NCBI GenBank assembly: GCA_016235045.1
Contig: JACRME010000017.1
Location: forward strand, 1-52,526
Direction: 5' to 3'
Length of the DNA stretch: 52,526 bases
Source: Nitrosomonadales bacterium
GTDB lineage: Bacteria; Pseudomonadota; Gammaproteobacteria; Burkholderiales; Gallionellaceae
The position numbers and the translations under genes were made by a program. Under the pieces are notes generated by a model. The model ran no database searches. It worked only from the letters and a program-made list of their open reading frames with translations, and had not been told where the DNA came from. Below, piece after piece: positions 1 through 52,526 of the stretch. The number at the start of each line of letters is the position of its first letter. The stretch's first letter is position 1.

Positions 1-32
1 TCCCCAGCCCTCCCCCTACAAGGGGGAGGGAG
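1..32. repeat. Palindromic GC repeat inside mutY
   Basis: A perfect hairpin has arms 8-16 (CCCTCCCCC) and 22-30 (GGGGGAGGG) around a 5-nt loop. Read on the minus strand it continues into GGCTGGGGA. The same arrangement, a 9-bp stem, 5-nt loop and then GGCTGGGA, starts the repeat inside recG at 51994. In mutY it sits in the coding frame where family members have ordinary protein sequence. The left boundary lies outside the window. Confidence 0.75.
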
Positions 33-536
33 TAAAAGCTCGGCTTGTCGCCACAACTTCTCTTCCACCTTCTTCTCCCCCGCCCATCCTTCAATGCCGC
101 AGTAACGAGCAAGCACGCGTTTGACGTTGCCGTCGAGTATCGCGCGGCGCTCGTGGTAGGCGAGTGCGCAGACCGCGGCAGCGGTGGATCGGCCGATGCC
201 TGGCAGCTCGACGATGTCTTCGAACTTGCGCGGGAATTCGCCGTTGAACTTTACAACGATGATCTGCGCCGCCTTGTGCAGGTTGCGACCGCGCGCGTAG
301 TAGCCGAGGCCGCTCCAGTGGGCGAGCACCTGCTCCTCGGTGGCGGCGGCAAGCGTCGCGATATTTGGATAGGATGCGACGAAGCGCTGGTAATAGGGAA
401 TGACGGTGGCGACCTGCGTCTGTTGCAGCATGATCTCGGACAGCCACACGCGGTAGGCATCCTGCCCCTGCCAGGGCAGGTCGTGGCGGCCGTGGCTGCG
501 TTGCCAGGCGATCAGGCGGGAGGAGAACGATGACAT
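1..536 (-). CDS. mutY: A/G-specific adenine glycosylase MutY (5' part, runs off window)
   Basis: This base-excision repair glycosylase removes adenine mispaired with 8-oxoguanine or guanine. The ATG at 536 opens 178 codons that run off the left edge. Visible landmarks are the active-site segment WLSEIMLQQTQV with Glu34, the helix-hairpin-helix LPGIGRSTAAAV (about 111-122) and LDGNVKRVLAR with the catalytic Asp135. The Fe-S cluster and the 8-oxoG-recognition domain lie outside the window. It lies 31 bp downstream of the AsmA-like gene on the same strand. Just after LWRQAELLLP the reading enters a palindromic GC repeat (1-32) that is not part of the family, so this copy may carry an insertion. 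Whether the frame recovers cannot be seen. The family call is firm; integrity is unknown. Confidence 0.93.
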   Translation of the reverse strand, partial: MSSFSSRLIAWQRSHGRHDLPWQGQDAYRVWLSEIMLQQTQVATVIPYYQRFVASYPNIATLAAATEEQVLAHWSGLGYYARGRNLHKAAQIIVVKFNGEFPRKFEDIVELPGIGRSTAAAVCALAYHERRAILDGNVKRVLARYCGIEGWAGEKKVEEKLWRQAELLLPPPCRGRAG

Positions 537-28754: not shown

Positions 28755-29102
28755 CTAAACTGTCCGATCGGGGCTGCATTCACAGCCTCCCACCACAGCC
28801 GGAGCTGCAACAGGCTTTGCTACTGCGGGCTTCTTCGCGACAGCTTTTTTGGCAGCCGGTTTCTTGGCTGCTTTTTTGGCTGCAGGCTTTTTCGCAGCCG
28901 GCTTCTTGGCTGCGGCCTTCTTGGCAGCGGGTTTCTTTGCTGCTGCCTTTTTGGCTGCCGGCTTCTTGGCTGCTGCCTTTTTAGCGGCTGGCTTCTTGGC
29001 TACGGCCTTCTTGGCAGCGGGTTTCTTTGCTGCTGCCTTTTTAGCTGCCGGCTTCTTGGCTGCCGCCTTCTTTGCTGGTTTGGCTTTCTTTGCTGCTACC
29101 AT
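28755..29102 (-). CDS. Lysine/alanine-rich histone H1-like protein
   Basis: A 115-aa highly basic protein. After MVAAKKAKPAKK it is built from 5-7 residue units of the KKPAAKKA type, the C-terminal histone H1/AlgP-like pattern, repeated about twelve times. The end, VVGGCECSPDRTV, departs from the repeat and holds Cys-x-Cys. Such proteins bind DNA or RNA non-specifically. AAGGAGG lies 7 nt before the ATG, so it should be well translated. DNA-level repeats make length variation between strains likely. Confidence 0.85.
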   Translation of the reverse strand: MVAAKKAKPAKKAAAKKPAAKKAAAKKPAAKKAVAKKPAAKKAAAKKPAAKKAAAKKPAAKKAAAKKPAAKKPAAKKAAKKPAAKKAVAKKPAVAKPVAAPAVVGGCECSPDRTV

Positions 29103-39676: not shown

Positions 39677-40486
39677 TCACTTCTCGACCAACACCTCCAC
39701 CGGTTCCGATAAATGACTTGCTTCCTCACCAATATCCGTATTCTTGCCCTCTTGAACATTTTCGTTTTGTACATCGTATGGATTCGCATCTTCTTCGGCG
39801 ATCGGATCAGCTATTTGTGAAGCAGCTTCAGTTTTCACATCGACCTTAGCATCACCAAGACTTGTTTCAGCTTCTGAAGACTGCACCTTCTCCGGACCCA
39901 TGTCGATGGTCGGCGTAACAATCTGGACTTCCTTCACTCTCGTAAACCTTGTGCGTGTGCCATCCTGCTCGACCAGCAAAAAGAAATCTTTATCAACGAC
40001 ATCCATAGAATTGATGTCAGGCGGCCACACTACCCCCTCATCGACCATCCAGATCATCTGGTTGTCATGTACACCCCATGTTCCGTGGAAGGTCTCAGCG
40101 CTCAGGCTGCACTCAAACGGCTCTGATATAAATTCGCCACTCTCCAGTAACTTGTGTCTGTATGTACAGCGTGGCTGGGAAGCCTCCCATACACCGACAA
40201 ATTCTTTGGGAACATGCGGCATCGCATCGACAGCACGATAAATGGAAGCCATCAACCAGTTTCCCAGCAAACCATTCTTGGCCTTCAGGCATGTGACCAT
40301 ACCTTTCGCTAATTCCAGCCCACTGCTCATTTTCGATGTCACCACAGAGCATTCTTCAGTGTTGTGCACCACTTTTGCCGCGACTATCCCTACAGCTATG
40401 TTGAACAGTATGAACATGACGAACACGTAGAGGACAAGCCTAAGAGGCAAGGCAACCCACCTTGGCAGATCAGATGTCAACTTCAT
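39677..40486 (-). CDS. Unrecognised membrane-anchored protein
   Basis: A 269-aa protein I do not recognise. It has one N-terminal helix (about 8-34, PLRLVLYVFVMFILFNIAVGIVA), a periplasmic domain with several cysteines (EECSVV, VTCLKAK, RCTYRHK, FECSLS) and VGVWEAS...GTWGVHDNQMIWMVDEG, then an acidic, Pro/Glu-rich C-terminal tail of about 80 residues. The ATG at 40486 overlaps the stop of a 23-codon upstream frame (ATGA), so translation is probably coupled. It lies against the IS3 remnant. Confidence 0.65.
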   Translation of the reverse strand: MKLTSDLPRWVALPLRLVLYVFVMFILFNIAVGIVAAKVVHNTEECSVVTSKMSSGLELAKGMVTCLKAKNGLLGNWLMASIYRAVDAMPHVPKEFVGVWEASQPRCTYRHKLLESGEFISEPFECSLSAETFHGTWGVHDNQMIWMVDEGVVWPPDINSMDVVDKDFFLLVEQDGTRTRFTRVKEVQIVTPTIDMGPEKVQSSEAETSLGDAKVDVKTEAASQIADPIAEEDANPYDVQNENVQEGKNTDIGEEASHLSEPVEVLVEK

Positions 40487-40554
40487 TGCAGCGCCTTGCC
40501 CAATGGCGTGATGGTGGCGGCGACGATGCAGGTTTTCTGGACTTGTTTGGTCAT
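40483..40554 (-). CDS. Candidate 23-aa leader peptide
   Basis: A short frame starting MTKQVQKTCIVAATIT has the best ribosome site of the area, GGAGGAAATC directly before its ATG. Its TGA overlaps the ATG of the membrane protein (ATGA). It is either a real small peptide that couples translation or the displaced original start of the following gene after a frameshift. No other homology is evident. Confidence 0.45.
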   Translation of the reverse strand: MTKQVQKTCIVAATITPLGKALQ

Positions 40555-40744
40555 GATTTCCTCCGATCACTACCGCATTTTCTCATTTCAAGAATTGAGA
40601 ATGGAGCAACCCCGTAGGTCGGGTTAGTTCAGTTGGATGGGGTGAGCGCAGCATTATCCATCAATCATTTCTCACTCACAATTCAAACCGGGCAGCTTCG
40701 TGAGTCGAATACATATTGAACATACCGTCTACGCACAAAATAAT

Positions 40745-42013
40745 TCAGGTCTTGCCATTTGCTTCCTGCCGCCGCAGATACACCCCCAGCCCCACGCCCA
40801 CCACGCACAGCGCCGCCATATAGTGCACCGGCGCCAGCGCATCCAGCGGCAGCAGGCGACTCACCAGCACCGGCGTCAATCCGCCGAAGATGGCGTAGGC
40901 CACGTTGTAGGAGAACGACAGGCCGGAGAATCTCACCACGGGTGGGAATGCTTGCACTGCGGTGCTGGGAATCACGCCGATCACGCCGACGAAGAAGCCG
41001 CACAACGCATACGCCCAGTAGATGTCGTCCGGTGCGACTCCCAGGCGTTGGTAGAGCAACCACGAAGTCGCGCCCAGCGCGATGCAGCCGAGCGCCAGCA
41101 CGCGGCCAGCGCCGAATTTATCCGCCATCGCGCCGAACACGATGCAGCCCATGCTCAGGAACAGTGTCGCGACGCTATTGGCCTGCAACGCCGTCACCGC
41201 GGGGATGGCATACAGCTTCTGGATCAGCGTCGGCGTCATCAGGATCATCACCACCACGGCGGCGGACAGCAGCCAGGTCATGAGCATGGTGAGCACGATG
41301 GCCGGGCGGTGCTCGCGCACCACCGTTTTCAGCGGCAACTCGTTCGCCAGTTGCTGGCGCGCCTGCATCTCCTTGAACACCGGGGTCTCGTGCAGATACT
41401 GGCGCAGCCACACCGACACCAGACCGAACACGCCGCCGAGGATGAACGGCAGGCGCCAGCCTTCTTCCAGCAAGGCCGCAGGATCGTAAGACCGGTTCAC
41501 GGCAGTCGCAACCAGCGAACCCAGCAAAATGCCGCCGGTGAGTCCGGCCGTCAGCGTACCGCAGGCAAAACCGACATGGCGCTGCGGCACATGCTCGGAG
41601 ACGAATACCCAGGCGCCCGGCACCTCGCCGCCGATGGCCGCGCCCTGCATCACGCGCAGGGCCAGCAACAGCAGGGGGGCAGCGATGCCGATGCTGGCAT
41701 AGGTCGGCAGCAGACCGATGGCCAACGTCGGGATCGCCATCAGGAAGATGCTCAGCATGAACATCTTCTTGCGCCCGAGCAGGTCGCCGAAGTGCGCCAT
41801 GATGATCCCGCCCAGCGGGCGCGCCAGATAACCGACCGCGAAGATGCCATAGGTCTGCGTCTGGCGCAGCCATTCCGGCATGTCGGGCGGGAAGAACAGT
41901 TGCGCGATGACGCCCGCAAAGAACACGAAGATGATGAAATCATAGAACTCCAGCGTGCCGCCCAGCGCGGCCAGCGTGAGCGTGCGGTAGTCGCTGCGCT
42001 TCAAACTAGGCAT
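40745..42013 (-). CDS. MFS transporter, metabolite:H+ symporter (MHS) type
   Basis: A 422-aa permease with about twelve helices. The N-terminal GGTLEFYDFIIFVFFAGVIAQLFFP and GYLARPLGGIIMAHFGDLLGRKKMF are the MHS hallmark and the MFS loop 2-3 motif; GEVPGAWVFVSEHVP follows. Relatives carry proline/betaine, citrate, shikimate or alpha-ketoglutarate with protons. The start ATG overlaps the preceding gene by 8 bp, so it belongs to the same operon. The substrate cannot be read from sequence. Confidence 0.87.
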   Translation of the reverse strand: MPSLKRSDYRTLTLAALGGTLEFYDFIIFVFFAGVIAQLFFPPDMPEWLRQTQTYGIFAVGYLARPLGGIIMAHFGDLLGRKKMFMLSIFLMAIPTLAIGLLPTYASIGIAAPLLLLALRVMQGAAIGGEVPGAWVFVSEHVPQRHVGFACGTLTAGLTGGILLGSLVATAVNRSYDPAALLEEGWRLPFILGGVFGLVSVWLRQYLHETPVFKEMQARQQLANELPLKTVVREHRPAIVLTMLMTWLLSAAVVVMILMTPTLIQKLYAIPAVTALQANSVATLFLSMGCIVFGAMADKFGAGRVLALGCIALGATSWLLYQRLGVAPDDIYWAYALCGFFVGVIGVIPSTAVQAFPPVVRFSGLSFSYNVAYAIFGGLTPVLVSRLLPLDALAPVHYMAALCVVGVGLGVYLRRQEANGKT

Positions 42014-42605
42014 TTGTTTTTCTCCCCTGAGTCCACCAGTATTTCACCTGCCCGGCAATCGCGTAGATCGCCAGCCAGGGATCGAGCAGATAATCCCACA
42101 GGTTGGTCGATTCGTACCAGCCGGCGCTCCACGCCGCCACCGCCAGCGCGATGACCAGGGCCAGCAACATCGAATAGCGCAAGGTCGACCACAGCGTGAA
42201 GCCCAGCAGCGCCAACAGGAACCACAGGTTGCCGTAACCCAGCCGGTACGGGTCGAATGCAGTGAAACCCAGGGCAAAGGGATAGAACACCACTGCGGCG
42301 ACGGCAATCGCCCGCAATACCCGCAGGCGGTTTGCTTCTTCGATCAATGCGCACCCGGACAGCGTGCGCGCCAGCGCCAACGCCAGCACCAGCAATGTCG
42401 CGATGCTCAGATCGCCGCTGATGCCGCGCATGAAACCGGACAGCGACAAGCCCCACAGCGGAATCGATGCCAGCACGACGGCCGCAGCCAATATCGCCGC
42501 CCGCTGGCGCGGCGGAAACGCCTGTATGCGCGGCACGCGCACCAGCAGCGTGAAAATCGCCAGGGTAATTCCAAACAGTCCGGTCAGGTCAGTGTTGAGT
42601 TGCAT
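42006..42605 (-). CDS. Unrecognised polytopic membrane protein
   Basis: A protein of about 199 aa with five or six membrane helices and short loops, including RVPRIQAFPPRQR near the N terminus and FDPYRLGYGNLWFLLALLGF near the middle. ATGs at 42605 and 42611 are both possible and both overlap the end of the BNR-protein gene. Its stop overlaps the transporter start. No family is recognised. Its place in a four-gene coupled operon suggests an envelope role. Confidence 0.75.
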   Translation of the reverse strand: MQLNTDLTGLFGITLAIFTLLVRVPRIQAFPPRQRAAILAAAVVLASIPLWGLSLSGFMRGISGDLSIATLLVLALALARTLSGCALIEEANRLRVLRAIAVAAVVFYPFALGFTAFDPYRLGYGNLWFLLALLGFTLWSTLRYSMLLALVIALAVAAWSAGWYESTNLWDYLLDPWLAIYAIAGQVKYWWTQGRKTNA

Positions 42606-43971
42606 CGGCACCCTTTTTCAAATGACGGTTCAGCCAGGTCTGGTCAAACGTGACATGTTTGATGAACACCCGGTTCCAGGTGTATGTCAGATGGAAATTG
42701 CCGTTGCGCGCCTGGATCAGGTACGGATAGGAAAATTCGAAACCGCAGCCGCCGTCCGCGCGCACCCTGGCCCTGGCGGAATCGACATATTCGTCCAGCG
42801 TCGCCTGGGGTGCATGCGCCAGCCGCTTGTCCGAATTCTGCAGCAGGCCCTGCACGATGGACAGGCACTGCTTTTCGTCCAGGTTCTTGTCGCGCACCAC
42901 GCGCATTTCTTCCAGACGATGCAATTCCTTCCAGTTGCGCCCGCCGTCCGCCGACAACATCAGCGACAAGCTGTCGCGTCCCTGCTCCTGATGGTTCAGC
43001 ACCGCGAGCAGGCGGCCATCCTGCAATACCGTGCCCGACAGCGCCGCGTCCGGATTGGGGAACGACGATTTCTCCGGCGCCGACCAGTGCTGCCCTCCGT
43101 CTTCCGTCGAAATGCTGCGCGCCAGATGCGGGTTGTCTTTGCCGGAATAACGCGTCAGCACCAATGCCTGGTTCGGATTTTTCACCAGCACCACCGGCTG
43201 CAACGTGCCCTGCCCCGCCCGCGCCAGGCGCTGTTTGTCGATGACGTTCCCCCCCGCATCCAAGTGCAGCACCTCGGCAAACTTGCTGACGAACTCGTGG
43301 TACACCGGCACCCCCATCGAACCGTCCGCATACAGGAACGGCGCGCCCTTGACCAGCGTGCTGATATTGATGAACGGCGAGGTGATCAGGCGGCGCGGCG
43401 CACTCCAGCTCTCGCCCTCGTCGTTCGAGGTCATCATCGTGATGGAACTGCCCGCCCAACCGCCCAGCGATACCGTGACGTAGAACAATTGCAGGGTGCC
43501 GTCCGCCGCCCGCGCCGCCACCGGATTGCCCAGTTTGGCGACATAGCGGTGCAGCGCACGTTGCGTGCTCGAACGGCTGGCGATCACCCGCTCGCCGCTC
43601 CACTCGCCCTGCACCGGATCGAACACCGCGCTGTTGATGGTCACATCCGACGCACCCTCGCGGCTGCCGGAAAACCAGAAGGCGCGGATGCGGCTGTCCC
43701 TGAGTTCGACCAGCGAAGATGCATGGGTCTGCGCATGCAATCGGGAAGAAGCGAGGCGACTGGAATAACTGCCGTTGACGTGACTGGTGTCCTGGTCGGC
43801 GAGGCGCCCTCGCTTGCGCGGCTGCGGCTTCTGCTCGACCGGCGGCGCGGCGGCAGGCTCGACAACCGGCATGCGGAATCCGTACGAGGGAGCGGGTTGG
43901 CGCCAGACCTTGTTCAGGCCCAGGCCGAAGGCCAGCAACACGCACCCCAATGTCAGGTATCTGGCAATCAT
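42589..43971 (-). CDS. BNR-repeat/sialidase-like exported protein
   Basis: A 460-aa protein with an N-terminal signal/anchor (about 5-20, YLTLGCVLLAFGLGLNKVW), a Pro-rich linker with PPVEQKPQPRKR, and a six-bladed propeller of sialidase type. Asp-box motifs are visible: SNDEGESWSAP, STEDGGQHWSAP and SADGGRNWKEL. SSLVELRDSRIRAFWFSGSREG is the exo-sialidase-like opening. The ATG at 43971 starts 5 bp after the ArnT-like stop. Sialic acid cleavage is not implied; such folds act on various glycans or only bind them. Confidence 0.8.
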   Translation of the reverse strand: MIARYLTLGCVLLAFGLGLNKVWRQPAPSYGFRMPVVEPAAAPPVEQKPQPRKRGRLADQDTSHVNGSYSSRLASSRLHAQTHASSLVELRDSRIRAFWFSGSREGASDVTINSAVFDPVQGEWSGERVIASRSSTQRALHRYVAKLGNPVAARAADGTLQLFYVTVSLGGWAGSSITMMTSNDEGESWSAPRRLITSPFINISTLVKGAPFLYADGSMGVPVYHEFVSKFAEVLHLDAGGNVIDKQRLARAGQGTLQPVVLVKNPNQALVLTRYSGKDNPHLARSISTEDGGQHWSAPEKSSFPNPDAALSGTVLQDGRLLAVLNHQEQGRDSLSLMLSADGGRNWKELHRLEEMRVVRDKNLDEKQCLSIVQGLLQNSDKRLAHAPQATLDEYVDSARARVRADGGCGFEFSYPYLIQARNGNFHLTYTWNRVFIKHVTFDQTWLNRHLKKGADATQH

Positions 43972-43976
43972 TCCGT

Positions 43977-45698
43977 CTACCGGCATTCGCTTCTGGGCGC
44001 AGCCGCCAACTTGGGCAGCGCCGCTTGCGATTCGATCAGCACTTCCTTGACGAACAGGTGCTCGAACACCTTGCCTTCCAGCAACATCTGCTTGATCTCC
44101 GGCGCGTACTGGCGACCGTTGATCTCCAGCCGTTCGCCGATCACTTTGCACTCGGCGCAGGGCTTCTCCTGGAAACCCATGCGCACGGCAAACACACGGA
44201 AACGTTTCGCCAGCGACTCGGCGTTCACGCCGTCGAGATGGTCGTAGTAACCCAGCACGTTCGCGCCCGGCAGCAGGAAGCGGTGCCCCTCGTCCTTGGC
44301 GATGAACTTGTTGCACGGCACCCACACCTCCTTGCCCGCCAGCGACTGCTGCACCTCGGCGCTAAAATTGCCGCGCGCGCCGTCGAACGGATGCAGGAAG
44401 GAGGCCAGCGTGAGATAGGTCAGCAGCATCACCACATTGACCAGCAGGCGCGTGTAGCGCGCAAAGAAAATGCCCGCCAGCAACAATAACGTGGTTACGG
44501 TCAGCAGAGTCCAGTAGGTCCAGTCATAGAGCGCGCCGCCGCTCTCGTCCTGCAAGCGCAGCGACATGCGCACCAGCAGCGCCAGCACGAGTCCCGCCAT
44601 CAGCAGCGCGCCGACGAACCACTTGCGGTCGATGCGATCCCAATAGAAAGCCATCAGCACCGCCAGCGCGGGCATCGCTTCCAGCAGGTAGCGCGCCGAG
44701 CGCTGGCTGGCCAGGCTGAACATGAAGAACAGCGCGGCCATCCAGATCCACAGATATTTCTCGCTGTCGGTGGTCTGCTTGCGCTGGCGGAACGCCGTCC
44801 ACATCAGACCGAGCACCGGGAATGCCAGCAGGCCCGCGTTCTGCGCATAGCCCAGCGACAAGCTCCAGATGCTGCTCGGCCCCCACAGCATGGTGCCCAG
44901 ATAGTTGCCGCTCTGCACCTTGCCCATGTTCTCTTTCCAGAAGAACTCGTTCCACAGCCCCACCGTATCCGGCTCCAGCAGGAACCACAGGCCGAACACC
45001 AGCAGACCGATCACGCCGGTGATCACCGGTTTCCACGAGTCCTTGATCAGGAACTCGCGCCAGCGATACTGGCGATGGTGCAGATACCACCAGCTCAGGC
45101 CGAGGCCGACCGGCAGCACGAAGAAGAACGATTTGTACAACAAGCCCACGCCGGTGAGCAGACCCATCGTCACCGGCATCCAGAAGCGCGATTCGAAGGT
45201 GAAAGGCCGCCAATAGATAAGTGTGAAAAACGGCAGGAAAAGCCAGAACACGATACCCGGATCGGTCAGATAGGGGCGGCCGAAACGGTAGGTGCTAAAG
45301 AAGGCCAGGAAAGTGAGCAGCGCGACGAAGCCCGTCTCGGTCTTGCCGGTCAAACGCTTCGCCAGCAGAAACACCAGCAGCGAAGTCAGCAGGGTGTAGA
45401 TCACGCTGGGATAGCGCAGATGCCACAGATCCCACTGCTGCCCCCAGTCGGTCGCCGCGATGGCGTGCCAGAACATCATCGGCGGCTTGAAGTTGCGGCC
45501 GTAGTCCAGCTCGGATTGCAGCGGCAGCCAGTGGCCGCTGTCCGCCGTCATGCGGGCGACGTGGACATACAGGTATTCGTCGCTGTTCTTGGGAATATGC
45601 TGGCTGCCCAGGCCGTAGAAATAGACGAACACGGCGAGCAGGCTCGCCAGGATGAACCACGCCAGCCGCAAGCGCGCGTCGGAATCTGGTTTGAACAT
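43977..45698 (-). CDS. ArnT-like membrane glycosyltransferase (GT83 type)
   Basis: A 573-aa polytopic enzyme. Family signs are NSDEYLYVHVARMTADSG near residue 40, where the DE pair is part of the lipid-sugar transferase motif, and FGRPYLTDPGIVFWLF, together with about twelve helices and a soluble C-terminal domain with CAECKVIGE. It likely moves a sugar from an undecaprenyl carrier to lipid A or another envelope acceptor. The ATG at 45698 is chosen. The GT2 gene at 46.8 kb could make the lipid-linked donor. Confidence 0.83.
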   Translation of the reverse strand: MFKPDSDARLRLAWFILASLLAVFVYFYGLGSQHIPKNSDEYLYVHVARMTADSGHWLPLQSELDYGRNFKPPMMFWHAIAATDWGQQWDLWHLRYPSVIYTLLTSLLVFLLAKRLTGKTETGFVALLTFLAFFSTYRFGRPYLTDPGIVFWLFLPFFTLIYWRPFTFESRFWMPVTMGLLTGVGLLYKSFFFVLPVGLGLSWWYLHHRQYRWREFLIKDSWKPVITGVIGLLVFGLWFLLEPDTVGLWNEFFWKENMGKVQSGNYLGTMLWGPSSIWSLSLGYAQNAGLLAFPVLGLMWTAFRQRKQTTDSEKYLWIWMAALFFMFSLASQRSARYLLEAMPALAVLMAFYWDRIDRKWFVGALLMAGLVLALLVRMSLRLQDESGGALYDWTYWTLLTVTTLLLLAGIFFARYTRLLVNVVMLLTYLTLASFLHPFDGARGNFSAEVQQSLAGKEVWVPCNKFIAKDEGHRFLLPGANVLGYYDHLDGVNAESLAKRFRVFAVRMGFQEKPCAECKVIGERLEINGRQYAPEIKQMLLEGKVFEHLFVKEVLIESQAALPKLAAAPRSECR

Positions 45699-45847
45699 AG
45701 TGACTGTTTCGAGTTGTCGAAGTGAAGCAAAAACGCACTGCCGGTCTGCGCAAAACAGCCAGCAGCAACGGGCGGCATGGTAGCATGGAAGCCTCGCTTC
45801 GAGCGATTCTCCGGGCCACGCGCCCGGCACCAACGGAAAGGAAACAC

Positions 45848-46762
45848 TTGAGGGCACTTGTTCTCGGCGGAGGCGGTTTTATCGGATCGCACCTGGTTAC
45901 TGCGTTGCTGGCGCAGGGCGCGCTGGTGCGTGTGCTGGAGCGCCCGTACCGCACGCGCATGCCTTCGATCCCCAACCACCCGTCGCTGGAATGGCAGGAG
46001 GGCGATTTCGGCAACGTGCAGGACATCCATCGCGCGCTCAAGGAGGTGGACGTCGTGTTCCACCTGGTCTCCACCACCCAGCCGCAGTCGTCCAACGACG
46101 ACCCCTCCTTCGATGTGGAAAGCAACCTGGCCGCCACGCTGCGCCTGCTGGAGCAACTGCGCGGCACCAAGACCTTGCTGATCTTCGCTTCTTCCGGTGG
46201 CACGGTGTACGGCCGGCCGCAGCACACGCCCATTCCCGAGACGCATCCGACCGAACCGACCTGCTCCTACGGCATCGTCAAGCTCGCCATCGAGAAATAC
46301 CTCGCGCTGTACCGGCTGCTGCACGGCCTCGATTACCGCATCTTGCGCGTGGCGAATCCCTACGGCCCCGGACAGGAAGCGAACCGCGCCCAAGGCGTGG
46401 TCGGCACTTTCCTCTCGCGCGTGGTGCACGGCGAGCCCATCGAAGTCTGGGGCGACGGTTCGGTGGTGCGCGATTACCTGTATGTCTCCGACACCGTGTC
46501 GGCCCTCATTCAGGCCGCCGGCTATCGGGGCGAGCAGCGCATCTTCAACATCGGCTCGGGCGGCGGCCACAGCGTGCGCGAGATCATCGCCGCCGTGGAG
46601 CAGGTCACCGGAAAAAAAGCGCAGGCCAGCTTCACCGCCGCGCGCAAGTTCGATGTGCCGGTGAGCGTGCTCGACATCGCCCGCGCCCGCAAGGAACTCG
46701 GCTGGCAACCCAATACCGATTTGAGCGAAGGCTTGCGCCTGACGCTCGCCCATATCAAATAG
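45848..46762 (+). CDS. NAD-dependent sugar epimerase/dehydratase
   Basis: A 304-aa extended short-chain dehydrogenase acting on nucleotide sugars. LVLGGGGFIGSHLV is the NAD-binding GxxGxxG, FASSGGTVYG and CSYGIVKLAIEKY contain the Ser/Tyr-x3-Lys catalytic set, and RVANPYGPGQ is typical. The start chosen is the TTG at 45848 with AAAGGAAA upstream, since the domain begins immediately (LRALVLGG); an upstream GTG at 45722 would add 42 residues unlike the family. It is divergent from the ArnT-like gene. UDP-glucose-4-epimerase-like or related activity is possible. Confidence 0.82.
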   Translation: MRALVLGGGGFIGSHLVTALLAQGALVRVLERPYRTRMPSIPNHPSLEWQEGDFGNVQDIHRALKEVDVVFHLVSTTQPQSSNDDPSFDVESNLAATLRLLEQLRGTKTLLIFASSGGTVYGRPQHTPIPETHPTEPTCSYGIVKLAIEKYLALYRLLHGLDYRILRVANPYGPGQEANRAQGVVGTFLSRVVHGEPIEVWGDGSVVRDYLYVSDTVSALIQAAGYRGEQRIFNIGSGGGHSVREIIAAVEQVTGKKAQASFTAARKFDVPVSVLDIARARKELGWQPNTDLSEGLRLTLAHIK

Positions 46763-46775
46763 CCCGGCAGACCAC

Positions 46776-47735
46776 ATGAACACCTGCACCCTGTCCATCG
46801 TCGTCCCCGTCTACCGCAGCGCGCCCATCCTGCCCAGGCTGGTGGAAGCCGTTGCCGCCGAGATGCAGGCGGAAGGACTGACCGGCCGCTTCGAACTGAT
46901 CCTGGTCAACGACTGCAGCCCGGACAACAGTTGGCAGGTCATCCGCACCCTGGCCGAGGCCAACCCTTTCGTCAGAGGCATCACCCTGCGCCGCAACGTC
47001 GGCCAGCACAACGCCATCATGGCCGGACTGCATCACGTGACCGGCGAATACGTCGTGCTCATGGACGACGACCTGCAGCACCCGCCCTCCGCCATCGCCG
47101 CCATCGTCAAGGCGCTCGCCGAAGGCTACGACGTGTGCTACACCAACTACCTCAACCGCCAGCATGCGGCCTGGAAAAAACTCGGCAGTTGGTTCAACGA
47201 CCGCATGGCGACCCTGCTGCTGGGCAAGCCCAAAGGACTGTATCTCTCCTCGTTCAAGGGCATGCGCCGCGAGATCGCCGACGAAATCGTCCATTACGAC
47301 GGCCCCTACACTTATATCGACGGGCTAATTCTCGACGTCACCCGCTCGATCACGACGGTGGACATCGAGCACCAGGCGCGCTTCGAAGGCGAAAGCAACT
47401 ACACCCTCCTCAAGCTGGTTTCGCTGTGGCTGAAAATGGCCACCAGCTTCTCGGTATTCCCGTTGCGCCTCGCCACCTACGCGGGCTTCGGCCTGGCCGC
47501 GCTGAGCCTGGTGATGATCGTGGTGGTGATCGTGCAGAAAATGATGTTCCCGGAACTGCCGCGCGGCTGGGCATCCACCATCGCCACCATCCTGTTCATC
47601 GGCGGCGTCCAGACCTTGTGCATCGGCATGGTGGGAGAATATCTCGGGCGCACTTACCTGAAACTTAACCGCAAGCGCCAGTTCGTGATCGGCAGCACGA
47701 CCTGGAAGAAACCTGCCGAACGCGCCGGAAAGTGA
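46776..47735 (+). CDS. GT2 glycosyltransferase, ArnC/GtrB-like
   Basis: A 319-aa family 2 transferase. The catalytic domain carries SIVVPVYRSAPILPRLV, LVNDCSPDNSW, LRRNVGQHNAIMAGL and the metal-binding VLMDDDLQHPP. Two C-terminal membrane helices (about 228-255 and 264-290) anchor it. It would transfer a sugar from a nucleotide donor to undecaprenyl phosphate. It follows the epimerase by 13 bp, and the ArnT-like enzyme across the promoter gap could use its product. The exact sugar is not known. Confidence 0.88.
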   Translation: MNTCTLSIVVPVYRSAPILPRLVEAVAAEMQAEGLTGRFELILVNDCSPDNSWQVIRTLAEANPFVRGITLRRNVGQHNAIMAGLHHVTGEYVVLMDDDLQHPPSAIAAIVKALAEGYDVCYTNYLNRQHAAWKKLGSWFNDRMATLLLGKPKGLYLSSFKGMRREIADEIVHYDGPYTYIDGLILDVTRSITTVDIEHQARFEGESNYTLLKLVSLWLKMATSFSVFPLRLATYAGFGLAALSLVMIVVVIVQKMMFPELPRGWASTIATILFIGGVQTLCIGMVGEYLGRTYLKLNRKRQFVIGSTTWKKPAERAGK

Positions 47736-47745
47736 TCGTCATCAC

Positions 47746-49026
47746 ATGAAACTTCCCGAAACACTGGGCAAATACACCCTCACCAGAAAACTGGGCCAAG
47801 GCGCGACCAGTACGGTGTATCTGGGTTTCGATCCCTTCTCCAAGCGGGAAGTGGCGATCAAGGTGTTGAAGCAGGAAATCCTGAACGATCCCAAGATGGG
47901 CAAGCTGTACCAGCGGCAACTGGACAACGAGGCTTCGCTGGCCGGCAAGTTGTCGCATCCGCACATCGTGGCGATTTACGACGCCATGATCGGCGACGAC
48001 TCCAGCCATATCGTGATGGAATACGTCAGCGGCGGCACATTGGAGAAGCATTCCGATCCCGCCAACCTGCTGCCCATCGACCGCGTGGTGGAATACATGT
48101 TCAAGTGCTGCCGCGCGCTGAACTACGCGCAATTCAACGGCGTGATCCACCGCGACATCAAGCCCGCCAACATGCTGCTCACCGAGGAGGGCGACATCAA
48201 GATTTCCGACATGGGCGCGGCGCTGCTGCTCAACATCGAGCAGACGCAGGTAAGCAACATCGGCTCACCCGGTTACATGTCGCCGGAACAACTGCGCGGC
48301 GAGGTGCTGACGCACCAGACCGACATCTATTCGCTGGGGGTGGTGATGTACCGCCTGCTTACCGGCCACGCGCCGTTCCAGGGCACGAACCTGGCCGCGC
48401 TGTGCCAGCAGATATTGAATGCCACACCGCCGACGCTGCGCAGCCTGCGTCCCGACATTCCGCCGCAACTGGAGCGCGTCGTGCTGACCGCCATGCACAA
48501 GGACAGGAAGGAGCGCTACCAGGACTGGAAAGATTTCGGCAGCGATCTCGCCGCGCTGGGGCGCTTCGAACAAAGCGCCATCGACATCAACCAGACCGAG
48601 AAATTCACCACACTGCGCGAGATGTCGATATTCAAGGACTTCACCGATATCGAACTGTGGGAGATACTGCGCGTCGGCGAGTGGCAGAAGCAGCCGCCGC
48701 AGACCGTGCTCATGCGCGAGGACGAAATGGGCGACGCCTTCTATGTCATGATCGACGGCAGCGTCAGCGTGACCAAGAACGGACGCCTGCTCAACGTGAT
48801 CCGCAGCGACGACTGCTTCGGCGAAATGGCCTACATCAGCGGCAGGGCCGTTCCGCGTTCCGCCACCGTCACCGCGGGAACCACGGTCACCGTGCTGAGA
48901 ATTTCGCCGCAGCAGCTTTCGCGGCTTTCCGACCATTGCCAACTACACTTCAATCAGGCATTTTTGCGCGTCATGGCGGACCGGCTCAGAATGGCAGACG
49001 ACCGCTTCGCCAAACTCGCCAACTAG
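47746..49026 (+). CDS. Ser/Thr protein kinase with C-terminal cyclic-nucleotide-binding domain (copy 1)
   Basis: A 426-aa Hanks-type kinase. [12 protein letters not shown] is the glycine loop, Lys39 the ATP lysine, Glu62 its partner, HRDIKPAN (135-142) the catalytic loop; the metal motif reads DMG (155-157) in place of [16 protein letters not shown] is the activation segment. From about residue 300 a cNMP-binding/Crp-like fold follows ([48 protein letters not shown]). No membrane helix is present. It is about two-thirds identical to the copy after ridA. The ligand is unknown. Confidence 0.9.
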
Positions 49027-49049
49027 AACAATTAAAAAAGGAGACCTTC

Positions 49050-49436
49050 ATGTCCAACAAATTCGTGATCCAGACCCCGGATGCCCCCGCCGCCATCGGC
49101 ACCTATTCGCAAGCCGTGCGCGTGGACAGCACCGTGTACCTTTCCGGCCAGATCGGCCTCGACCCCAACACCATGCAGATGGTCGAGGGCATCGAAGCGC
49201 AAATCCACCGCGTGTTCCAGAACCTGCGCGCCGTCGCCGATGCGGCGGGCAGCAGCCTGAACGACGTGGTGAAACTCAACATCTACCTCACCGACCTCGC
49301 GCATTTCGCCAAGGTGAACGAGATCATGGCGACCTATTTCCATCAGCCCTTTCCTGCCCGCGCCGCGGTGGGCGTCGCGTCGCTGCCGCGCAACGCGCTG
49401 ATCGAGGCGGACGGCGTCTTGTACATCCAGGAATAA
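49050..49436 (+). CDS. ridA: RidA family imine/enamine deaminase
   Basis: A 128-aa YjgF/RidA protein that hydrolyses reactive 2-aminoacrylate-type enamines. [29 protein letters not shown] and the C-terminal [22 protein letters not shown] contain the invariant Arg and Glu of the active site. AAAAGGAG precedes the ATG. It lies 23 bp after one kinase gene and 2 bp before the start of the next, so all three are coupled. Confidence 0.95.
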
Positions 49437-49438
49437 GC

Positions 49439-50740
49439 GTGCCTTCCAGCAACCCATTGCCAGCGGGCAACAGAACCTATCTCGGCACCTATCGCCTGAT
49501 CAAGAAGCTGGGCCAGGGCGGCACCAGCCTGGTCTATCTGGCTTACGACCCGTTCAAGAAAACGGAAGTTGCGGTCAAGGTGATCAAGCAGGAGTTCCTG
49601 GACGACCCGCGGCTGGGCAGGCAGAACCGCAAGCAACTGGAAAACGAAGCCGCACTGGCCGGCAAGCTCATCCATCCGAACATCGTCAAGACGTATGAAG
49701 CGGTGCTCAGCGACGAGGTGAATTACATCGTGATGGAATACGTGTCCGGCGGCACATTGGAAAAATTCATCCACCGGGAAAACCTGCTGCCGCTGGACCG
49801 CGTGGTGGAATACCTGTTCAAGTGCTGCCGCGCCCTCAACTATGCGCAGTTCAAGGGCGTCATCCACCGCGACATCAAGCCCGCCAACCTGCTGCTGGAC
49901 CGGCCGAACGAGATCAAGATCACCGACCTGGGCGCGGCCATCCGGCTGGATCTCGAGCAAACGCACGGCAGCGTCGGCTCGCCCAACTACATGTCGCCGG
50001 AGCAGGTGCGCGGCGACGAAGTCTCGCACCAGACCGACATCTACTCGCTGGGCGTCGTGATGTATCGCCTGCTCACCGGACACTCGCCCTATACCGCGAA
50101 AAATCTCGCGCACCTGTATCAGCAGATTTTGCACGAGCAACCGCTGCTGCCGACCAGTCATCGCAGCGACCTGCCGCCGCAACTGGAGCGCATCGTGATG
50201 CGCGCCATGCAAAAAGACCCGGCAGACCGCTTCCCCACCTGGCGCGATTTCGGCAACGAACTGGCGGAGCTCGGCCACTTCGAGAAGAGCGACCTGGAAA
50301 TCAACGAGAGCGACAAATTCATTGCGCTGCGCAAGCTGGGCATGTTCGAGGATTTTTCCGACCTCGAACTGTGGGAACTGCTGCGCATCGGGGAATGGCA
50401 GAAGCAACCCGCGAAGACCGTGCTGGTGCGCGAGGACGAGATGGGCGATGCGTTCTACATCCTGATCGAAGGCGGCGTGAACGTGACGCGCAACAACCGT
50501 TTGCTCAACACGCTAAGCAACGGCGATTGCATCGGCGAGATGGCCTATGTCAGCCGCAGGAAAATGCCGCGCTCCGCCACCATCTCGGCCAACACCGACA
50601 TCACCGTGATGAAGATCATGCCCGACCAGCTCGACAAGCTTTCCGACCGCTGCCAGTTGCACTTCCTGCAGGCATTCCTGTACACGCTGGCCGACCGTCT
50701 GCGCATCGCCGACGACCGGGTCGCCAAGATGGCGAACTAA
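49439..50740 (+). CDS. Ser/Thr protein kinase with C-terminal cyclic-nucleotide-binding domain (copy 2)
   Basis: A 433-aa paralogue of the kinase at 47.7 kb. LGQGGTSLVYLA, Lys47 and HRDIKPAN (143-150) are intact, and the metal motif is DLG (163-165). The CNB domain has [27 protein letters not shown] and CIGEMAYVSRRKMPRSATISA. The start is the GTG at 49439, 2 bp after the ridA stop, with no clear site of its own, which points to translational coupling. The stop is in the same frame as recG, 33 bp before its GTG. Confidence 0.9.
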   Translation: MPSSNPLPAGNRTYLGTYRLIKKLGQGGTSLVYLAYDPFKKTEVAVKVIKQEFLDDPRLGRQNRKQLENEAALAGKLIHPNIVKTYEAVLSDEVNYIVMEYVSGGTLEKFIHRENLLPLDRVVEYLFKCCRALNYAQFKGVIHRDIKPANLLLDRPNEIKITDLGAAIRLDLEQTHGSVGSPNYMSPEQVRGDEVSHQTDIYSLGVVMYRLLTGHSPYTAKNLAHLYQQILHEQPLLPTSHRSDLPPQLERIVMRAMQKDPADRFPTWRDFGNELAELGHFEKSDLEINESDKFIALRKLGMFEDFSDLELWELLRIGEWQKQPAKTVLVREDEMGDAFYILIEGGVNVTRNNRLLNTLSNGDCIGEMAYVSRRKMPRSATISANTDITVMKIMPDQLDKLSDRCQLHFLQAFLYTLADRLRIADDRVAKMAN

Positions 50741-50773
50741 GCCCCCGCAGGACAGATTTCGATTCCGGATCCC

Positions 50774-52526
50774 GTGCCGTTGAAAATCGCCGCCGCCACA
50801 CAAAGCAAATTCGCCAAGCTCGGCATCCGCGCCCCGTTCGACCTGGTGCTGCACCTGCCGCTGCGCTACGAGGATGAGACCAAGATCACGCGCATCGCCG
50901 ACCTCGTTCCCGGCGAGCGCGCGCAGGTGGAAGGCGAGATCATCCACAGCGAAGTGATGTACCGCCCGCGCCGCAGCCTGGTGTGCCAGTTGCAGGACGA
51001 CAGCGGCGACATCCTGTATCTGCGTTTCCTGAATTTTTATCCCAGCCAGCAGAAGCAGCTCGCCGTCGGCAAAAAAATCCGCGCGCTGGGCGAACCGCGC
51101 ATGGGTTTCTTTGGTGACGAGATGGTGCACCCCAAGTGCCGCAGTGCGGGCGAGTCCGTCCCGCTCAAGCAGGCGCTCACGCCGGTGTATCCCACCACGG
51201 CCGGGTTGCCGCAAGCGACGCTCGCCAAGAACATCCACGCCGCATTGAACGAACTCGCGCTCGACGACACCCTGCCGGAAGCGATCAAGAAACGACTGCA
51301 CCTGCCCGACTTCGACGCCAGCGTGAAGCTGCTGCACCAACCGCCGCCGAGCATCGACGAGAACGCTCTACTGGAACGCGCGCACCCCGCCTGGATGCGC
51401 ATCAAGTTCGACGAACTGCTGGCGCAGCAACTCTCGATGCGCGTGCACTACCGCGAGCGCAGCCGACGCATCGCACCCAAACTTGGCGCGCACAACAAAC
51501 TCACCGATGCGCTGCTGAAGGATTTGCCCTTCGCCCTCACCGGTGCGCAGAAGAAAGTCTGGCACGAGATCAGCGCCGACATCGCGCGACCGCATCCCAT
51601 GCAGCGCCTGCTGCAGGGCGACGTCGGCAGCGGCAAGACCGTGGTCGCCGCGCTGGCCGCTTTGCAGGCCATTGAGAACGGCTACCAGGTCGCGTTCATG
51701 GCGCCGACCGAGATACTGGCCGAGCAGCATTATTTGAAATTACGCGAATGGCTGCAGCCGCTGGGCATCGAACCAGTGTGGCTTTCCGGCAGCTTGAAGA
51801 AGAAGGACAAGACCGCCGCCGCCGAACGCATCGCGTCCAGCGACACCATGCTCGCCATCGGCACGCATGCGCTGTTTCAGACCTCGGTCGAGTTCAAGAA
51901 GCTGGGGCTGGTCATCGTGGACGAACAGCACAAGTTCGGAGTGCAGCAAAGACTGGCGTTAAGAGGAAAGGGAACCACCGAAGCTGCTCCACCCCTTCCC
52001 CCTGGCAGGGGGAAGGCTGGGATGGGGGTCGAGTCGTTGGGCATTCACGCTTCTACCCCCTCCCCAACCACACCCGCAAGGGGTACGCCGGTGGGTACCC
52101 CGCCGCTTTGCGGCGACCCTTCCGCAGTCCCCCTGCAAGGGGGAGGGAGTTTTGAGCCGCACCAACTCATGATGAGCGCCACCCCCATCCCGCGCACGCT
52201 GGCCATGAGCTACTACGCCGACCTCGACGTCTCCGTCATCGACGAGTTGCCGCCCGGACGCACCCCCATCGTCACCAAACTGGTGAGCGACACACGGCGC
52301 GAAGAAGTGTTCGAACGCGTGCGCGCCGCCTGTCTCGAAGGTCGCCAAGCCTATTGGGTCTGCCCGCTCATCGACGAATCGGAGGCGTTGCAATTGCAGA
52401 CCGCGCTGGAGACCCACGCCACGCTCACCCAGATATTCCCCGAACTGCGCATCGGCCTCGCGCATGGGAAATTAAGCAGCGCCGAGAAGGCAGAGACCAT
52501 GGCCGCATTCAAGGCGGGCGAACTGC
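50774..52526 (+). CDS. recG: ATP-dependent DNA helicase RecG (3' end outside window), with in-frame repeat insertion
   Basis: A branch-migration helicase of recombination and fork restart. The wedge domain begins LVLHLPLRYEDETKI; helicase motifs are GDVGSGKT (about 281-288), DEQHKFGVQQRLALRGKG (about 382-399), MMSATPIPRTLAM (about 466-478) and DLDVSVIDELPPGRTPIV. Between motif II and III relatives have only a few residues, but here about 61 codons of a palindromic repeat (51974-52156) are read through in frame. The start is a GTG at 50774, the first plausible codon after the TAA of the kinase. At least 584 codons are open; the family is near 680 aa. Confidence 0.93.
   Translation, partial: MPLKIAAATQSKFAKLGIRAPFDLVLHLPLRYEDETKITRIADLVPGERAQVEGEIIHSEVMYRPRRSLVCQLQDDSGDILYLRFLNFYPSQQKQLAVGKKIRALGEPRMGFFGDEMVHPKCRSAGESVPLKQALTPVYPTTAGLPQATLAKNIHAALNELALDDTLPEAIKKRLHLPDFDASVKLLHQPPPSIDENALLERAHPAWMRIKFDELLAQQLSMRVHYRERSRRIAPKLGAHNKLTDALLKDLPFALTGAQKKVWHEISADIARPHPMQRLLQGDVGSGKTVVAALAALQAIENGYQVAFMAPTEILAEQHYLKLREWLQPLGIEPVWLSGSLKKKDKTAAAERIASSDTMLAIGTHALFQTSVEFKKLGLVIVDEQHKFGVQQRLALRGKGTTEAAPPLPPGRGKAGMGVESLGIHASTPSPTTPARGTPVGTPPLCGDPSAVPLQGGGSFEPHQLMMSATPIPRTLAMSYYADLDVSVIDELPPGRTPIVTKLVSDTRREEVFERVRAACLEGRQAYWVCPLIDESEALQLQTALETHATLTQIFPELRIGLAHGKLSSAEKAETMAAFKAGEL
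51974..52156. repeat. 183-bp palindromic element inserted in frame in recG
   Basis: Four hairpins are stacked: CCTTCCCCC/GGGGGAAGG (51994-52016, 5-nt loop), GGGGTAC/GTACCCC (52080-52101), CGCCGC/GCGGCG (52101-52115) and TCCCCC/GGGGGA (52128-52144). The left hairpin and following GGCTGGGA match the mutY repeat, and the right end read on the minus strand gives CTCCCTCCCCCTTGCAGGGG, nearly the same. So the ends are inverted copies, MITE-like. The length is a multiple of three and there is no stop in the recG frame. Confidence 0.88.

Follow-up and report, generated by a model that had tools for sequence, protein, structure and literature searches.

In-frame palindromic repeats at a recurrently occupied loop of RecG in Gallionellaceae

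Composite structure of the RecG insert

How does a RecG helicase come to read through a long repetitive stretch between its motifs II and III? The question is raised by the last gene of the window, i.e. the whole stretch of DNA analyzed here, 52,526 nucleotides long, which is contig C24 of a 3.15-Mb genome in 33 contigs (hereafter G000). Named relatives among the best 80 of 370 matches to this RecG (Sideroxydans, Sideroxyarcus and Gallionella MAGs) place the genome near Gallionellaceae. The initial annotation had proposed that a mobile palindromic unit of 183 bp had inserted in frame into a RecG that tolerates it. The features concerned are the following:

50774..52526, plus strand: recG, with a GTG start and truncated by the contig end; the frame is open throughout and encodes the RecG wedge and DEAD domains
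51974..52156, plus strand: in-frame insert of 61 codons (RecG residues 401–461), lying after the helix of motif II and before the strand of motif III
51995..52016, plus strand: 5' hairpin of family A, CTTCCCCC..AGGGGGAAGG
52019..52069, plus strand: inner inverted pair of family A, GGGATGGGGGT / CTACCCCCTCCCC, with a variable spacer
52070..52128, plus strand: element E, nested in A and with approximate ends; some 57 bp of E match by themselves at other sites
52129..52147, plus strand: 3' hairpin of family A, CCCCCTGCAAGGGGGAGGG

The recG frame covers 1752 nt of the window and is stop-free up to the contig end, the 3' end of the gene lying beyond it. The core reads DEQHKFGVQQRLALRGKG up to the codons of K399–G400, which end at 51973; the insert itself reads TTEAAPPLPPGRGKAGMGVESLGIHASTPSPTTPARGTPVGTPPLCGDPSAVPLQGGGSFE, and the core resumes with PHQLMMSATPIPRT, P462 being the first residue after the insert. 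Since the closest insert-free relatives have two codons at this place, reading GKG-x-E-PHQ, the insert adds a net 59 codons (177 nt). Few residues are found there in the solved RecG structures 9wm0, presumably of an E. coli-like RecG, and 1gm5, which we take to be T. maritima RecG. Two claims of the initial annotation, about 61 extra codons between motifs II and III and a 183-nt stretch without stops in the recG frame, are thus confirmed. It had also pointed to the 3' part of the gene as a place where a frame break would count against it. In the window the gene ends at the contig edge; in insert-bearing relatives the stop-to-stop frame is full-length (for example 715 aa in L042, 730 in L047, 725 in L056 and 784 in L097), except in L026, the recG of G031 (one of the seven A-bearing genus genomes described below), whose frame breaks directly downstream of A and which lacks motif III (region 2640–2800), possibly through a deletion or an assembly collapse between ACCCCC repeats.

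As RNA, the insert folds with a z-score of −4.2, none of 200 shuffles being as stable, and 46 places in G000 match it by BLAST at E ≤ 1e-3, the insert itself included (40 of 99 candidates were scored, and the flanks were read as those of 39 further loci). Because of these two results, the insert is not a chance sequence, and its description as a hairpin-rich repeat is borne out. Its description as a single 183-bp mobile unit is not: the insert is made of two repeats, element E being nested in a repeat that we call family A (the names A–H were coined in this analysis). Element E also occurs alone at other places in the same genome and in other genomes, as matches to query positions 98–154. The A+E composite is matched almost in full at three further sites in G000 (88–91% over 154–169 nt), of which two fall within PurL and PepA.

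Among the 13 full copies of A in G000, GTAG is present in eight and CTACCCCC in 12, at the inner ends of the inner G/C-rich pair and not directly beside the outer hairpins. Family A has an inverted hairpin pair, as the ends of a MITE would need, and 29 flanks inspected by eye showed no target-site duplication. The mobility of the unit is favored by its multiple copies and by the in-frame copies in other genes (see below), the lack of a visible duplication speaking against it; transposition itself we infer.

An Rfam scan of 40000–52526 (E ≤ 1) gave four matches, all below the gathering score and all outside the insert. The strongest, Ysr141 (E 6.7e-8, 51561–51805), falls in the recG core and was rejected. 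Elsewhere, the window contains two adjacent paralogous genes (47764–50413; 71–82% identical in blocks), the second of which (49439–50740) reads as a putative serine/threonine kinase with a cyclic-nucleotide-binding-like tail, and, on the minus strand (28780–29091), 15-nt tandem units in what reads as a putative alanine/lysine-rich histone H1-like protein.

Different repeats at the same RecG position

We surveyed 34 genomes of the same genus, G000 included, which were not picked by insert presence; four had no readable recG. Of the 30 readable RecG loops, 17 are empty and 13 are filled, seven with A, two with B and four with C. B is an RPEPVEG-type repeat unrelated to A. C is a VGLKPDLQ-type repeat that has the layout of a GTAG-type REP dimer, i.e. 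a GTAG tag beside a short stem in an inverted dimer, as in L066, which reads GTAGGTCGGGTTTCAACCCGAC..GTCGGGCTGAAGCCCGACCTAC. The same RecG codon region holds A, B, C or a nested D, depending on the species.

In two other genera of the family the loop is empty (L024, L025), and in 20 of 23 same-order genomes with recG it is shorter than about 10 residues. The other three (G038, G043 and G048; L266, L267 and L268) have longer loops there, of roughly 34, 20 and 16 residues, respectively, in which no repeat was recognized. No typed repeat was found in the RecG loops of these 23 genomes; loop length nevertheless varies outside the family. Relatives with equally long, unrelated loops, which the initial annotation had named as evidence against its reading, do occur: many of their loops are other repeat families, and others match none of the repeat patterns used. 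Because the long loops of relatives often hold other repeat families, we regard the RecG site as a spot in a variable loop where repeats land again and again.

Element D (TGATGGAACTACTAGCC..GCTGGTTACC) coincides with or adjoins hairpins of A, B or other repeats (L010, L012, L097 and the end of contig C23 of G000), as if it targeted palindromes. In one sister pair, L097 resembles L046 with 138 nt of D added in frame within the resident repeat, a comparison in which, at the sequence level, an in-frame nested insertion can be read directly.

A quick RecG tree was built from 94 protein rows with the loop left out (96 were tried, L108 and L026 being dropped); 34 of its 91 inner branches are starred, i.e. 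well supported, and 29 are weak. Its named loci were taken as the top 80 of 370 matches to the insert-bearing query, and the insert share among them is biased upward because the query itself carried the insert. With loose peptide patterns, the 94 loops are distributed as none 28, short 27, A 9, B 8, C 8, A+D 2, E-type 2, D+E-type 1 and other long 9, the E-type label being different from the E nested in the window insert; three of the nine A rows (L065, L069, L091) match the 3' half of A alone. These labels give 40 changes on the tree, with at least eight forced for A, seven for B and five for C. Strict labels (A in 8, B in 6 and C in 8 rows) give 25 changes, of which starred branches force at least five for A, six for B and five for C. 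The changes may be gains, losses or replacements, between labels that rest on peptide patterns. Note that nine long and 27 short loops match none of the repeat patterns under loose labels; because of these unmatched loops and of the three long loops among the 23 same-order genomes, we attribute part of the length variation to ordinary loop drift or decayed repeats.

The content of the RecG loop follows the repeats resident in the genome. Sites matching the B pattern with up to three mismatches number 67 in G007 and 52 in G012, which carry B in RecG, versus 4, 7, 16 and 28 in four other genomes. C-pattern sites, counted in two of the four C-carrying genomes, number 135 in G014 and 143 in G020, versus 0, 0, 0 and 10 elsewhere. 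A-profile matches are likewise more numerous in genomes that carry A in RecG than in the others (Mann–Whitney p = 7.6e-4, n = 30; both strands of a palindromic copy were counted and at most 150 candidates per genome scored). Two genomes depart from this pattern: G005 and G013 have many A matches (61 and 25, respectively) but an empty RecG loop.

The flanks of the loop are under purifying constraint: comparison of the window RecG with eight relatives gives dN/dS values of 0.06–0.09 before the loop and 0.01–0.04 after it, also where both partners are filled. Values below 0.1 on both flanks in all eight comparisons support the proposal that RecG tolerates the insert. A disordered loop, as had also been proposed, is plausible. 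AlphaFold2 with a 48-row alignment (mean pLDDT 73.5) gave pLDDT values below 50 at residues 404–457, between a helix (390–398) and a strand (463–468), although a thin alignment, as in the insert, tends to lower the score anyway and may account for part of this effect. Before the insert, 27 of 40 ten-residue blocks score above 80; one stretch after it (469–505) is also low. A single-sequence prediction was useless (mean pLDDT 34). The link carrying the insert is probably surface-exposed and, as judged from the SF2 fold, would lie at a distance from the cleft for ATP and DNA.

Repeat copies in other genes

The search for further in-gene copies that the initial annotation had suggested was run on G000 and revealed in-frame copies of A in at least nine other conserved genes. 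Beside RecG, they lie in PurL, PepA, MnmC, an MFS transporter, Tex, MtnA, AddA, AddB (two copies) and a GlpC-like protein, as named from Pfam and PDB matches. The solved homologs of PurL and Tex run almost straight across the insert site (residues 797/800 and 408/412, respectively), and 52 residues of MtnA stand against 18 in its solved homolog at the insert. The homolog alignment of MnmC is weak after the insert, and the catalytic domain is the sole part of PepA that aligns to a solved homolog. The first AddB site is filled in G000 and G030 and empty in G007.

In the other genomes of the genus, from which 20 long frames were fetched, copies of A were found in HrpA, MutY, an APH/AAA protein, AddB, PepA, MnmC, TilS, a SPINDLY-like glycosyltransferase and a CheR-TPR protein, and, with Pfam support on one side only, in TamB (L256) and a HipA-like protein (L265). 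Four of these 20 frames (L247, L249, L253, L262) have no Pfam match and are probably spurious; in another set of 20 scanned proteins, seven were likewise without a Pfam match (L131, L142, L124, L130, L132, L139, L151). Inserts upstream of the first domain (DraT L145, SNase L143, OEP L126 and L250, PLPC L251) were left out of the in-gene tally, since translation may in truth begin further downstream; two of the 20 fetched frames are among them. Family A is nearly confined to the genus: 3 of 120 genomes of the order match at E ≤ 1e-8, two of them being sampled genus members.

Two frames are mostly open in the 13 full copies of A in G000, F0 in 10 and R0 in 11. The counted full-length in-gene copies of G000 are all in F0; a mirror search of the other genomes found R0 copies in HrpA, MutY and the APH/AAA protein, and an absolute one-frame rule was therefore rejected. 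Among the rows listed for the genus genomes with frames of at least 300 aa, in-gene copies number 29 in F0 and 15 in R0, a seeming preference for F0 in a tally whose lists ended at different E-values and which includes at least one F0 and three R0 spurious cases and one R0 shadow of an F0 frame.

One MtnA position, readable at 25 of 30 loci, is filled in 10, with A in four and other repeats in six. One Tex position, readable at 16 of 30 loci (14 genes), is filled in seven: two with A, four with a SGRHSGEGRNPA..LRRNDG repeat and one with another. Both sites thus appear to be reused by unrelated repeats as in RecG, the non-A inserts being assigned as repeats by likeness to B or to known repeat peptides and not by counts.

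Origin of the inserts and relation to known systems

Most likely, these inserts are selfish repeats that permissive loops tolerate, comparable to the palindromic elements of Rickettsia (RPEs) and to intragenic REPs. The short palindromic repeat A, presumably mobile, would land in frame in the permissive RecG loop, where it also houses E. Copies landing elsewhere in genes or out of frame would mostly be purged, so that a few permissive loops (the RecG motif II–III link, one MtnA loop and one Tex loop) would fill, empty and refill with the abundant family of the lineage. The repeat peptide would be translated as a probably disordered and presumably neutral loop, with RecG function retained. We consider it highly probable that A (with E) landed in frame in a permissive RecG loop, that such loops refill from lineage-abundant repeats and that RecG function is kept.

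Alternatively, the recurrence could reflect targeting and not tolerance, enzymes recognizing the sequence at the RecG site. Different families do enter at nearly one RecG codon, D lies at or beside the hairpins of other repeats, and matches to Y1_Tnp (Y1 transposases of the RAYT kind) are present in 10 of 12 genomes tested. However, families with different ends use this one site, some of the same families use the MtnA and Tex sites despite differing site sequences, no obvious common flanking motif was seen by eye outside the repeat, and G014, which has a C insert and is rich in C sites, gave no Y1 match at the cut used. We therefore regard targeting as unlikely.

A selected function, by which the inserts would modulate RecG and further repair proteins, seems more doubtful still, even though Di Nocera 2013 (PMC3733652) speculates on such a role for REPs lying within repair genes. 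Insert-bearing genes do include the repair and recombination genes RecG, AddA, AddB and MutY, but many others are metabolic or translational (PurL, MtnA, PepA, MnmC, TilS), 17 of the 30 genus genomes do without a RecG insert, and unrelated repeat families serve equally. RecG substrates include branched and palindromic DNA. It is conceivable, with a similarly small chance, that a few core-enzyme loops are shared, renewable landing sites and that the RecG insert peptide alters the helicase, thereby feeding back on repeat stability.

That the assembler joined a repeat into a recG at the contig end is very improbable: C24 and C23 do both end inside recG, in a 90% identical overlap with different inserts, and C24 also begins within an A hairpin, but independent assemblies carry in-frame inserts at the same codon, the entire 1752-nt frame is open and the genome has three other nearly whole A+E copies. 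The C23 fragment, a second recG 3' fragment (L039; C23 205000–209519, reverse complement 1–476), is 90% identical over 373 nt and has a B + D type insert; it may stem from a bin mixing two lineages or from a duplicated gene, and represents one further filled loop whose allele–genome assignment is ambiguous. The contig start (window 1–33) lies inside an A-type hairpin, and these repeats may therefore break assembly.

In this iron-oxidizing bacterial group, then, repeats appear to have landed repeatedly in frame in one tolerant RecG loop and in other enzymes, and to have refilled one protein position many times, from unrelated repeat families, within a single bacterial family. The inserts amount to a natural insertion scan, marking loops of RecG, MtnA, Tex, PurL and other proteins that tolerate 20–60 extra residues. 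Whether repeat peptides are junk or raw material becomes testable with matched empty and filled orthologs.

In-frame repeat insertion as a kind is already known, above all in Rickettsia and Wolbachia and, for REPs, in scattered instances. As the initial annotation had supposed, our literature searches, with most subscription papers outside reach, showed no prior description for this group: no report for the Gallionellaceae lineage, for RecG or for reuse across many species. Literature on encoded peptides, in-frame insertion in Sideroxydans or a Gallionellaceae MITE gave nothing relevant.

RPEs are reportedly the subject of studies by Ogata in 2000 and 2002. The proposed RPE-like, in-frame insertion is supported by the multi-copy nature of the repeat and by its in-frame copies in other genes: family A is palindromic, stop-free and in frame inside conserved genes, and its sites are empty in close relatives (17 of 30 same-genus RecG loops; AddB). 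As with RPEs (PMC10969869), the repeats are palindromic and of similar size, form several families and lie in frame in unrelated metabolic genes, each with a conserved peptide. Unlike RPEs, to which they are likened by features and not by sequence, they occur in Gallionellaceae, a single codon position is used by unrelated families, and one repeat may lie nested in another within a gene.

In Wolbachia, palindromic inserts lie in frame in addA, addB and priA, most without premature stops; recG is absent from this list in the portion of the source available to us (PMC4224334). Di Nocera 2013 describes, in the text available, in-frame GTAG/CGTC REPs and their dimers in many genes, often repair genes, as well as different REPs at about one recB site in two Xanthomonas species, and its main text has no mention of recG or Gallionella (PMC3733652). 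Family C fits the GTAG dimer layout described there. Unlike in those cases, recurrence at one site in Gallionellaceae spans many species and several repeat families.
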